In this document: positions 29,545-32,868 of the stretch, piece after piece
Layout of the letters: each line of letters starts with the position of its first letter
Numbering within the stretch: the stretch's first letter is position 1
From: Reyranella sp.
Lineage (GTDB): Bacteria > Pseudomonadota > Alphaproteobacteria > Reyranellales > Reyranellaceae
Direction: 5' to 3'
Assembly (NCBI RefSeq): GCF_004297265.1
Contig: NZ_SCUT01000024.1
Span: 124,001-188,000, forward strand
DNA: 64,000 bases
Made by a program: the position numbers and the translations under genes
The notes under the pieces: model-generated
Database searches by the model: none
What the model was told of the DNA's origin: nothing
What the model saw: the letters and a program-made list of their open reading frames with translations, nothing else

Positions 29545-30525
29545 CTACGCCGCGGCGCTGCCCGCGAGCTGACGCGCCATTTGAGACTTCGCCTCGCGAT
29601 ACTGGGCGATCAGGCGCCGCACGAGATCGGCGGCGGTCGGAACGTCCTCGATGTTCCCGACGCCGTGACCGGCCGTGTAGATGTCCTTCCAGCGCTTCTT
29701 GTTCTCCTGGGCGCCGACGATCTTGCCCGGCAGGGTCGTGCGCAGCACGTCGAGATCGATGCCGGCCGCCAACAGGCTGGGCGTCAGCCAGTTGGCCGGC
29801 GCGCCGTCGACCGAGGCGGTGAGGAAGACGTCGGTTGCGCGCGTGCCCAGGATCATGTCCTTGTGCGGCTGTGCCGCCATCGATTCCTGGGTCGCGATGA
29901 AGCGCGTGCCGATATAGGCGAGGTCGGCGCCCATCGCCTCGGCCGCCAGCACGTCGCGGCCCGTGGTCTGGCCGCCGGCCAGCACCACGGCGAAACTGTC
30001 GCCCAACTGTCGCACCTCGTTCATCAGCGCGAAGGGATTGATCGTGCCGGTGTGCCCGCCGGCGCCGCCAGCCACCGCGATCACGCCGTCGACGCCGGCT
30101 TCCAGCGCCTTCTCGGCATGGCGCCGGTTGGCGATGTCGTGCAAGGCGACGGCACCCCAGCCATGGATGCGCTTGATGGCCTCGCCCGGGGCGCCCTTTG
30201 AAGTGAGCACTACCGGCACCTTGTACTTCTCGACCAGTTCGAGATCGCCCTGGTAGCGCGGGTTCGAGGCATGGACGACGAGGTTCACGGCCCACGGCGC
30301 GGGCTTCTTACCGGCATCCTCCAGGCGCTTCATCCCCTCGACCATCTCGTCGAGCCAGGCCTGGAATTCCTCACGGCTGCGCGTGCCATGCGCGGGGAAG
30401 CTGCCCATCAGCCCTTCGCCGCAGCAGGCGAGCGTCAGCGCGGGATTGGAAACCAGGAACATAGGAGCGGCGATGGCGGGGATCGCCATGCGCTCCATCA
30501 ACTTGTGCACTTCGGCGCGCGGCAT
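29545..30525 (-). CDS. nitronate monooxygenase-like FMN protein (2-nitropropane dioxygenase family)
   Basis: A 326-residue TIM-barrel FMN protein. Blocks typical of the family are [14 protein letters not shown] near the N-terminus, [28 protein letters not shown] and [17 protein letters not shown]-dependent members oxidise alkyl nitronates or related carbanions such as propionate 3-nitronate; others act as reductases. The gene ends three bases after the start of the CoA-transferase is read, so both are cotranscribed. A nitro or other stabilised carbanion in the pathway is possible, but only a family assignment is safe. Confidence 0.85.
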
Positions 30526-30528
30526 GGA

Positions 30529-32868
30529 TCAAACCTCTCCGATGGTGGGCGTGGTGGATGTCACGCCGCTGTCGTTCAACTGCTTCAGGCGGGCATCGTC
30601 GTAGCCCAGCAATTCGCGCAGCACTTCGTCGGTGTGCTGGCCGAGATCGGGCGCGGGCCGCTCGATGGCGAGACCCTTGCCGTCGAGGCGGTAGGGCAGG
30701 CCCTTCACGAGGCCGCCCTTCTCGTCGCGGAGTAGGGTCACGCCCTGCAGCGCGGTGTCGCGCAGCAGGTCGTTGCCGTCGAGGCAGGGCGCTGCAGCAA
30801 TGCCTTTGGCCAGCAGCGACTTCAATGCAGTCTCACGGTCCTGGCCGGCGCAGAAGGTGGCCATCGACGGATCGGGCGTGTCGAGGGTCACGGCCAGCCA
30901 TTTGCCGTCCGCACATCGATAGGAGTCCTGCTGCGCCACGCCCGCTTCGGTATTGCCGCGTGGTGCCAGCCGATGGTTGGGATCGGCCGAGGCGGCGAGA
31001 ATCTCCTCACCGAGCGTAAACGACGCGACCTCGCGCTGGGAGAAATCGAGGAAGGCACCCTTGCCGCTGCGGCGCGCTTCGATGACCGCGGCGATCACGA
31101 TGCCGGTGGCGAACAGCGACACGATCTGGTCGGGATAGTTCACGTCCATGCCGGAGATGCGCGGCTCCTCGCCCTCGTAGCCGGTGAGCGAGGCGATGCC
31201 CGAGGTGGCATCGAGCGTGCTGCCAAAGGACACATTCATGCGCTCGGGCCCTGTATCGCCCTGGCTGGAGATCGCGGCGAACACCAGGCGAGGGTTGATG
31301 GCGCTCAGATCCTTGTAGCCGAGGCCAGCGCGGTCGAGCACGCCGCGGCGGAAATTCTCGACCACGACGTCGCAGTGCGCGGCGAGTTCGCGGATGACGC
31401 GTTGGCCCTCGGGATCCTTCAGGTTCAGCGCCAGCCCGCGCTTGTTGCGGTTGGTGAAGCGGAACTGCGGCGAGCGGTTCCACCAGCCGTCGTCGTTGTC
31501 GATCTTGCCGACGACGCGAAACGGATCGAGATAGGCGCCGGACTCGATCTTGATCACGTCGGCGCCGAGATCGGCCAGCATCGCCGACGTGTTCGCCCCG
31601 GCGGTCAGCAGTCCGAAGTCGAGCACACGGATGCCGGCAAGGGGTCGTCCATTCTCCTCCCCATTCAAATGGGGAGGTGTCGCGGTCATCCGCGACGGAG
31701 GGGTCATGGGCTTTGAGAGGTCGCGCATGACCCCTCCGCCCTCGTGAGACGAGGGCACCTCCCCATTTGAATGTGGAGGTGGAAGAGCAGGTGCAGGCCG
31801 CGGTGCGAAGGAGCGGCCGTTCCATTGCACGGGCAGCTGCGGCAGGCGCAGCTTGCCTTCCGTTCGATGCATCATGTCGGCGAGGAAACCACGCGCCACG
31901 TATTGCTCAGTCTGCAGCAACTCGGCCGGCGAGAAGATCGGGCCGAAGGGCACGCCCCTGGCCTGCGCCGTCTTCTGGATCTCGTCGCGCGTCTTGTCGG
32001 CGAACCACGGCGCGAGCGCTGCATAGAGTTCGGCGATGTTCTTTCGTCGACCGGCCCGTGGGCTGAATTTCGGATCGTCGAGCCGGGGATCGCCGACCAG
32101 GGCGCGCGTCGCCGGCCACTGGGTGACGGTATAGACAACCGCGACATGCCCGTCGCGGCAGGGCAGCACCTGGAACTCCGAGTTCTTTCCCTCGCGGCCG
32201 GGCGAGACGCCCGAGGCGGCGGCGCCGGAGGCGGCCTTCCAGTTCACCCACTGCATGACTTCGGCCAGCGACACCCGCACAGAAGGCGCCCGGCGTCCCA
32301 CGTCGCGGGCGGCGAGAGCCGCCATGAGGCTGGTGAAGGCTGTGAGGCCTGCCGGATAGGAGGCCTGATGGCCGCCGAGCTTCAACGGCTTGCGCGCGGG
32401 CTCGCCGACCATATGCATCAGCCCGCCCAGCGCCTGGATCGCCAGTTCGCTGACCGGCCGTTGCGTCGCATCCATTTCGATCGGGAACGCCGCGATCTCG
32501 ATCGGCGCGGCCTTGCCCGCGCGCAATACCGACGCGACGGAAGCCGGTTCCTCGAACAGTACGGCATCGGCTCCGTCGATCACGGCAGCGAGTGCAGCGC
32601 GGCCGGCTTCGCTCGAAAGATCGAGCACCAACGAGCGCTTCGACGTGTTGAGGAATTGGAACAGCGCGCTTTCGCCCTGCGGCAGCAGGGGCGGCGCGCG
32701 GCGCATCGGATCGCCGCCGGGCGGCTCGATCTTGAGCACGTCGGCGCCGAGATCGGCCGCGATCTTCGCCGCAAGCGACGTCGCAAGACGCAGGCAGAGC
32801 GGCACTTTTGCGTCGTTGACCTCGACGATCTTGAAGCGTGCCAGTGGAAGGGAAGGGGCCTCGGTCAT
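30529..32868 (-). CDS. double-length CoA-transferase family III (two fused CaiB domains)
   Basis: A 779-residue fusion of two family III domains (about 10-360 and 406-775), twice the usual size. The C-half keeps DFGLLTAGANTSAM, GADVIKIESG, the FTNRNKRGLALNLK block and the catalytic aspartate as Asp580 (NYPDQIV). In the N-half the corresponding position is Ser170 (GGHQASYPAG), so that half probably cannot form the acyl-aspartyl anhydride. Between the halves, residues 364-405 are encoded by a 124-bp palindromic repeat, giving low-complexity sequence. ATG 32868 is the start. First gene of the nine-gene minus-strand cluster; divergent from the luciferase-like oxygenase. Confidence 0.88.
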   Translation of the reverse strand: MTEAPSLPLARFKIVEVNDAKVPLCLRLATSLAAKIAADLGADVLKIEPPGGDPMRRAPPLLPQGESALFQFLNTSKRSLVLDLSSEAGRAALAAVIDGADAVLFEEPASVASVLRAGKAAPIEIAAFPIEMDATQRPVSELAIQALGGLMHMVGEPARKPLKLGGHQASYPAGLTAFTSLMAALAARDVGRRAPSVRVSLAEVMQWVNWKAASGAAASGVSPGREGKNSEFQVLPCRDGHVAVVYTVTQWPATRALVGDPRLDDPKFSPRAGRRKNIAELYAALAPWFADKTRDEIQKTAQARGVPFGPIFSPAELLQTEQYVARGFLADMMHRTEGKLRLPQLPVQWNGRSFAPRPAPALPPPHSNGEVPSSHEGGGVMRDLSKPMTPPSRMTATPPHLNGEENGRPLAGIRVLDFGLLTAGANTSAMLADLGADVIKIESGAYLDPFRVVGKIDNDDGWWNRSPQFRFTNRNKRGLALNLKDPEGQRVIRELAAHCDVVVENFRRGVLDRAGLGYKDLSAINPRLVFAAISSQGDTGPERMNVSFGSTLDATSGIASLTGYEGEEPRISGMDVNYPDQIVSLFATGIVIAAVIEARRSGKGAFLDFSQREVASFTLGEEILAASADPNHRLAPRGNTEAGVAQQDSYRCADGKWLAVTLDTPDPSMATFCAGQDRETALKSLLAKGIAAAPCLDGNDLLRDTALQGVTLLRDEKGGLVKGLPYRLDGKGLAIERPAPDLGQHTDEVLRELLGYDDARLKQLNDSGVTSTTPTIGEV
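31656..31779. repeat. palindromic repeat element inserted in frame in a coding region
   Basis: A 124-bp inverted repeat: left arm 31656-31708 (53 bp) and right arm 31726-31779 (54 bp) are near complementary, with a 17-bp spacer. Each arm begins with a CTCCCCATT..AATGGGGAG-type palindrome, then a 7-bp stem (GTCGCGG/CCGCGAC left, GCCCTCG/CGAGGGC right) and ends GGAGGGGTCATG. The two inner stems differ in sequence yet each is perfectly self-paired, showing compensating change. It lies in the linker of the double CoA-transferase and keeps its frame. This resembles known palindromic elements tolerated within genes (for example Rickettsia RPEs). Confidence 0.85.

Follow-up and report, generated by a model that had tools for sequence, protein, structure and literature searches.

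A dispersed REP-like palindrome very probably fused two overlapping CoA-transferase genes in Reyranella

Introduction

How does a 124-bp palindrome come to encode the linker of an enzyme, and did the two-domain enzyme exist before the palindrome arrived? These questions are raised by a minus-strand gene in the 64,000-nucleotide stretch of Reyranella sp. DNA analyzed here (the window), which encodes two CoA-transferase domains with a large inverted repeat between them. The first-pass annotation of this locus took the repeat for a member of a dispersed family, similar to the RPEs of Rickettsia, that had inserted in frame into the linker of an existing double-length protein. By comparing the junction between the two domains across related genomes, we arrive at a different order of events, to which we assign a probability of about 0.87: a REP- or BIME-like Reyranella repeat would have inserted at the overlapping stop and start codons of two coupled CoA-transferase genes and fused them into one two-subunit protein.

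Results

The element joins two genes that are separate in most relatives

As first annotated, the element lies in frame in the open reading frame for the 779-residue protein (Table 1). Its relatives were compared at 58 distinct loci encoding both domains; duplicates were removed, a locus present in two collections was counted once, and loci that lacked one of the domains or whose domain 1 match ended before residue 330 were dropped. The two domains are encoded by two genes in different frames at 42 of the 58 loci, where the anchor-to-anchor gap is 26 to 62 nt and always 2 mod 3, and the stop codon of gene 1 and the start codon of gene 2 share a 4-nt overlap in all of these split loci except one (41/42; the exception is L071). 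The other 16 loci, about a quarter, are fused, with junctions of 81, 84, 93, 99, 132, 150, 153, or 159 nt. Every one of the 16 fused junctions is a multiple of 3, free of stop codons, and in a single frame, and the element was recognized in all but L027, whose linker is too decayed for it to be identified. Of the two remaining frames on this strand, one or both contain a stop codon at each of the 16 loci, and across all 16 junctions the coding frame alone stays open among the six.

Table 1. Positions of the fused gene and of the parts of the inserted element in the window
Feature	Position	Strand	Remark
Gene for the 779-aa fused protein (two family III CoA-transferase domains)	30529..32868	-	CoA_transf_3 matches
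Domain 1 (putative former gene 1), residues 1-356	31801..32868	-	Without the catalytic-motif Asp
Domain 2 (putative former gene 2), residues 408-779	30529..31647	-	Asp 580 of YPDQ
51-codon junction: 7-codon prefix, element, 8-nt suffix	31648..31800	-	26-62 nt in split relatives
Whole palindromic insert: a pair of REP-like units with outward palindromes and inward tails	31656..31779	.	Residues 364-405 of the fused protein (P0001)
Unit 1 outer palindrome, CCTCCCCATTCAAATGGGGAGG	31656..31677	.	
Unit 1 variable inner stem, GTCGCGG.TCAT.CCGCGAC	31679..31696	+	
Unit 1 constant tail, GGAGGGGTCATG	31697..31708	+	
Unit 2 constant tail	31726..31737	-	Coding strand reads GGAGGGGTCATG: SD-like motif and in-frame ATG
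Unit 2 variable inner stem, GCCCTCGT.CTC.ACGAGGGC	31738..31756	-	
Unit 2 outer palindrome, one mismatch	31758..31779	.	

The comparison with homologues that the first-pass annotation had proposed thus found residues 364-405 to be cleanly absent from split relatives. Since the domains are encoded by separate and, in 41 of 42 cases, overlapping genes where the element is absent, the alignments indicate that the insertion is what created the two-domain protein and that it was not a neutral insert in an existing linker. The annotation's view of the insert as an addition to a protein that was already double in length does not hold up, nor did the insert keep a preexisting reading frame; it joined two genes that relatives encode in different frames. 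The junction of close split relatives is 32 nt and that in the window is 153 nt, a net gain of 121 nt; because this gain is 1 mod 3, it brings the frames of gene 1 and gene 2 together. The flanks of the element in L028 and L141, aligned to the split state by eye, read ...CTCGCG, element, TGAGCGAG, which places the insertion at the overlap itself, with removal of the ATG of gene 2.

When 21 dispersed full copies from the window's genome were considered in both orientations, 7 of 42 combined a length of 1 mod 3 with an open frame and would have fused these genes. In four fused loci (L020, L021, L027, and L029), half or most of the palindrome has been lost and the frame has been kept. Across seven fused loci, the dN/dS ratio is 0.56 for the linker versus 0.12 and 0.11 for the two domains, and this ratio, together with the constant frame, implies that the sequence of the linker is loose and its frame is held. 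Such rates are to be expected of a linker that is tolerated or useful between constrained domains. One fused gene (L018) belongs to a named isolate, Reyranella aquatilis KCTC 52223, and most of the other fused loci come from MAGs; Reyranella soli NBRC 108950 has the split state. In one further MAG, the assembly breaks off near the junction and each domain has its own contig (G066:C25 and G066:C491; L151), perhaps because of the repeat.

The element belongs to a repeat family that adjoins stop codons

A BLAST search of the element against the 6.0-Mb genome that contains the window (G000) returned at least 91 matches over the two strands together; of 70 candidate stretches, 40 were scored. The 16-nt core, with at most one mismatch, occurs 64 times in the forward and 62 times in the reverse orientation, compared with 0 matches to a reversed-pattern control, and the 22-nt palindrome occurs 55 times on each strand; we accordingly count 55 to 64 copies of the outer palindrome in this genome. 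The dispersed family that the first-pass annotation had suspected is therefore real, and the genome-wide search for the arms that it proposed found many further copies. Matches to the family were present in 22 of 25 genomes of the genus and in 0 of 16 other genomes. The palindrome was found in 2 of 289 sampled genomes of the class, both from the window's genus, of which three members had been sampled.

Direct inspection of 40 stretches from the window's genome gave the layout of the unit: a near-constant 22-nt palindrome, a hypervariable second stem, and a tail of the GGAGGGG(TCATG) / GGAGGGGTCATG type. A sub-type reads CTTCCCC...GGGGAAG...GATGGGG. Units occur either singly or in inverted pairs, with the palindromes facing outward or inward.

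The copies were placed relative to genes with a home-made, codon-usage-based gene caller trained on the window. Outside genes lay 42 of 43 copies in the window's genome, 23 of them between two stop codons, 19 between a stop and a start, and 0 between two starts. With 33 stretches sampled from G048 and 27 from G079 included, 0 of 98 classed copies lay between divergent genes, compared with 12 divergent pairs among the 61 adjacent gene pairs of the window. Outside these 98 were six copies without a neighbor on one side and three "inside" calls, one of which (L102:495-565) we dismissed because its match to the motif was weak. The median distance to the nearest stop codon is 9 to 10 nt. In the three genomes surveyed, the gene caller found copies inside only two genes, the fused gene of the window and one other gene (in two genomes), consistent with the annotation's remark that such a location is uncommon. 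Nine copy-spanning open reading frames elsewhere in the window's genome were inspected by eye and rejected as in-gene copies: either the parts flanking the element look non-coding or the element precedes the start of the gene.

Over 58 flanks from the window's genome, each 25 nt long, GANTC, the CcrM-type methylation motif, occurs 13 times beyond the outer palindrome, mostly at positions -10 and -9. Its density in these flanks is 0.0090 per nt, versus 0.0017 per nt further out, an approximately fivefold enrichment. The concentration at -10 and -9 suggests that the real ends of the element probably lie some 10 nt further out on both sides.

The fused state has a patchy history

A quickly computed tree of the two domains (57 rows; split row L055 was too short and was left out) required six changes of the fused label, at least five of them supported by starred branches. 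Within the window's clade, grouping the nine fused loci as a single clade was rejected (p-AU 0.0012). A gyrB tree of 25 genomes (5 of the 30 had no gyrB among the loci fetched and were left out) required five changes and likewise rejected a single fused clade (p-AU 2e-7). As an alternative marker, rpoB gave no match in eight of the 30 genomes, namely seven others and the window's genome, whose completeness is given as 100. The gyrB tree contains the window's clade (nine fused loci, two split, and one without an assigned state), a second clade formed by G005, G024, and G054, and G074, which lies beside the split G021. The close relatives L031 and L033 are both split, and L031 (G041) is nested among fused loci with support of 99/99 in the gene tree and 100/100 with gyrB. 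Since the gene trees and gyrB agree, the genes follow the species and the state of the junction does not. Because the fused loci are not one clade and L031 and L033 are split, a single insertion passed down by descent does not account for the distribution; the presence of the fused state in three lineages with different element types requires either repeated insertion or local recombination.

Recombination could have acted on a single insertion, with short tracts moving fused and split junctions between Reyranella species, and the nested position of L031 fits such an exchange. So does L022 (G074), which belongs to a split lineage by both the gene tree and gyrB. Its junction element has the same length (124), the same stems, and the same order as that of the window; it is 89 to 90% identical to the elements of the window and L017 but reaches only 81% against the closest of the further copies scored in its own genome (40 of 63 candidates). 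Because it resembles the window's clade more closely than its own copies, this element favors local recombination. However, each 150-nt block read on either side of it is closer to split loci, so the exchanged tracts must have been shorter than that. L023 is also suggestive, as its domain 1 resembles the window's clade and most of the domain 2 blocks read, three of the later ones among them, are 96 to 97% like split L068 (the last is 92%). However, fused L023 and split L068 are found in a single MAG (G013) with 6% contamination, so this mixture reflects either contamination or recombination.

The elements of the second clade (L024 to L026) argue against a single insertion. They differ in length and stems from those of the window's clade, L022, and L023, to which they are 62 to 74% identical over the longer length, and the L026 element reaches 85 to 90% BLAST identity, a different measure, with the closest dispersed copies found in G005 and G077. 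These differences and the match to dispersed copies favor a separate insertion. Based on these sequence comparisons, at least two insertions at the junction are likely, and a single insertion spread by recombination is possible but doubtful. We hold somewhat more readily, if still tentatively and at less than even odds, the broader view that the family is a recurrent gene-fusing module, in which at least two independent insertions would have struck the same stop and start codons, only frame-joining lengths would have been kept, and a selfish palindrome would have become the linker of a single-chain heterodimer.

The fused gene encodes two different family III domains

Both halves of the fused protein match CoA_transf_3 and have a family III relative in the PDB; NCBIfam gave no match above its cutoff for the whole protein. 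In domain 2, Asp 580 of the YPDQ motif occupies the alignment position at which other family III enzymes have their Asp. In domain 1, Ser 170 of the window's protein faces the Asp of 4ed9 in the alignment, and across loci this catalytic position is occupied by Ser, Pro, Ala, or Cys, with Asp in 0 of the 47 loci where the motif pattern was found (the pattern was unmatched in domain 1 of 11 loci and in domain 2 of 1). Membership in family III is thus indicated by the fold for both domains and by the catalytic Asp for domain 2 alone. These alignments suggest that domain 1 is probably a non-catalytic and domain 2 a catalytic family III subunit. An AlphaFold2 model built with 42 sequences (pLDDT 75, pTM 0.83; the other four models had pLDDT values of 72 to 55) folds both domains and gives residues 365-406 a pLDDT below 50; the linker is therefore predicted to be disordered.

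By fold, the model best matched BbsEF (PDB 9fn0), succinyl-CoA:(R)-benzylsuccinate CoA-transferase, which likewise consists of two different family III subunits. Chain A of BbsEF scores better for domain 1 and chain B for domain 2. BbsEF differs in having separate chains and is 27% identical, and by sequence 4ed9 (domain 1) and 9br6 (domain 2) score better. We infer that the fused protein ties together two subunits of one heteromer.

A fraction of domain 2 might still be produced on its own, because an in-frame ATG or GTG lies within the junction of 14 of the 16 fused loci, preceded in 5 of them (the window, L022, L024, L025, and L026) by an SD-like motif on the coding strand. This raises the prospect that there is no functional fusion at all and that the element, through GGAGGGGTCATG, supplies a ribosome-binding site and a start codon from which domain 2 is translated. 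Nothing in such an arrangement would hold all 16 junctions stop-free and in one frame while L020, L021, L027, and L029 lost their arms, and the junctions of L027 and L029 contain neither ATG nor GTG (TTG and CTG were not counted). An internal start as the whole explanation thus appears unlikely, and the fused chain would be the main product.

Pairing is a trait of the family

The element is the large inverted repeat that the first-pass annotation described. Its outer arms (31656-31679 and 31756-31779) are 24 nt long and 96% complementary, and its central 16-nt arms are 94% complementary. One outer arm contains the palindrome CCTCCCCATTCAAATGGGGAGG and the other a copy with one mismatch, each followed by a small second stem; as annotated, these two stems differ in sequence, and both are perfectly paired (GTCGCGG/CCGCGAC, 7 bp, and GCCCTCGT/ACGAGGGC, 8 bp). 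The minus-strand RNA of the element has a predicted folding energy of -94.2 kcal/mol, versus a mean of -45.0 for shuffled sequences (z-score of -13; 0 of 200 shuffles as good), and the predicted fold consists of one outer stem and three inner stems. Across the copies from the window's genome (L010 to L126), 72 units contain 37 different inner-arm sequences, and 67 of the 72 have an uninterrupted inner stem of at least 5 bp, compared with 3.7% of shuffles; the outer palindromes are identical in 32 of the 72.

The annotation had read the perfect pairing of differing stems as a sign of selection for folding. The pairing stands, but this conclusion from it is not forced, since template switching is described as able to create and mend perfect stems without selection for folding (PMC8794818). 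Both selection for folding and template switching are candidate causes of the perfect variable stems.

The strength of the fold and the conserved pairing of variable stems might also mean that evolution has conserved the palindrome for a local function of its RNA or DNA structure and that the protein linker is incidental. Given that the same pairing is found in dispersed copies, it is a trait of the family. Moreover, the four fused loci that lost half or most of the palindrome kept their frame, and no Rfam family reached its gathering score in a scan of the window. A local structural role is therefore very improbable. Matches to Rfam microRNA models fell below threshold (best E value 1.2e-4, with 34 bits where the gathering score is 94) and were taken as chance similarity between hairpins. 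Finally, the idea that an old two-domain protein had a linker that drifted into a palindromic or low-complexity sequence, as tandem domains of one family might suggest, is refuted by the separate genes at 42 of 58 loci, which include the most divergent rows of the tree, and by the presence of the same repeat elsewhere in the genome.

A second conserved gene carries the repeat in frame

The other gene with in-frame copies is a conserved gene assigned to NF003322 (NCBIfam, "hypothetical protein") from its G048 protein, which had no Pfam match; we take this gene to be UPF0280. Copies of the family lie within it at L233:1501-1623 (G048) and L263:1501-1620 (G079). The gene was matched in 64 of 65 genomes, and 30 of its loci were compared: 4 carry the element (G079, G043, G045, and G048), with a gap of 144 or 168 nt, both multiples of 3; in 24 the gap measures 6 or 18 nt; and two (L286 and L295) were unreadable. 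The insert also appears to be present in G066, where the contig ends. Its distribution is patchy, as it is absent from G041, G008, and G056, which are close to G045 and G079 by gyrB.

Discussion

Our preferred reading is that fusion followed from where the family tends to sit. Its copies adjoin stop codons, and at the CoA-transferase pair, the stop of gene 1 (probably the non-catalytic subunit) would also have been the start of gene 2 (the catalytic one). Insertion at this overlap, with its net gain of 121 nt, would take the gene 1 stop out of frame, so that ribosomes translating gene 1 would enter the frame of gene 2 and produce both subunits as one covalent chain, joined by a disordered linker of ~45 residues. 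The fused chain may work as a single-chain heterodimer, and the fusion may have been tolerated or favored because the subunits act together.

Among known systems, the family most resembles REPs and BIMEs, which are described as often forming inverted dimers, being present in many copies, and lying near gene ends and sometimes inside open reading frames (PMC3733652). The Reyranella family likewise has a short palindromic unit in many dispersed copies, is mostly extragenic and near the 3' ends of genes, and often forms inverted pairs. GTAG REPs, which are mobilized by RAYTs, have a RAYT flanked by the repeat. We found no such arrangement: Y1_Tnp had 0 matches in the window's genome at an E value of 0.001 (18 of 31 genomes of the genus have one), and none of 10 RAYT loci fetched was flanked by a full element (tail motif, 0; loose palindrome match, 2). 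We therefore rejected a RAYT as the mover, and the Y1_Tnp search found no dedicated transposase for the family. In this respect, the family is like the CGTC REPs, for which the available text of PMC3733652 gives an alphaproteobacterial home and no dedicated transposase. Their layout, according to the same text, is a CGTC tag, a stem of 8 to 9 bp opening with AT, a loop of 4 to 5 nt, and a CCA tail, and we did not recognize it in the Reyranella unit, compared by eye alone. In contrast to REPs, the Reyranella unit consists of two successive hairpins, the 22-nt palindrome and the variable stem, followed by the GGAGGGGTCATG tail, and the part of the REP account available in PMC3733652 does not describe the fusion of two neighboring genes.

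Other families share single features. RPEs are described as palindromic repeats that lie in frame in protein genes of Rickettsia and are translated (PMC2229807 and PMC3733652). The likeness that the first-pass annotation saw to them is one of behavior only, namely, in-frame insertion in two genes that evolution has kept; most Reyranella copies lie outside genes, and that in the CoA-transferase gene joins two. The Caulobacter CIR1 to CIR4 repeats (Chen and Shapiro 2003, as cited in PMC2229807) are alphaproteobacterial, ~110 bp long, and built of two inverted repeats with GANTC sites. That source says that they are absent from genes, have stops in all frames, and carry GANTC at the terminal loop, whereas in Reyranella, GANTC lies outside the palindrome and in-gene copies exist, so the family does not group with CIRs. 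Small mobile repeats of the MITE type are described as translated and fused to other open reading frames (Delihas 2007, as cited in PMC2229807). The Reyranella repeat instead joins two conserved enzyme genes, and the split state survives in 42 related loci. Of the features of MITEs, long inverted repeats are present, the two sites compared yielded neither exact ends nor a definite target duplication, and the search for a parent element was the one for Y1_Tnp. We recognized no REP- or MITE-made fusion of neighboring genes, no Reyranella repeat, and no fused family III enzyme in the literature searched, which is not proof of absence. REPs, in-gene palindromes, and MITE-made fusions are thus already known; what is probably new is the joining of two subunit genes at an overlapping stop and start, probably repeatedly.

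In-gene palindromic repeats are known mostly as tolerated inserts, whereas here the states before and after insertion both survive in relatives, and a course can be followed in which a repeat joins coupled subunit genes and the linker then decays with its frame held. Where genes overlap, such fusions are a likely outcome with a family that sits next to stop codons. The naturally fused and split pairs within one genus make the costs and benefits of subunit fusion testable, and the hypervariable paired stems beside a near-constant palindrome are natural material for telling template-switch repair apart from selection for folding.

The genes around the fused CoA-transferase provide a minor observation. 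Downstream on the same strand, with one open reading frame (29545-30525) between, the gene at 28377-29489 matches TIGR02818 above its cutoff, as a class III alcohol dehydrogenase / S-(hydroxymethyl)glutathione dehydrogenase.
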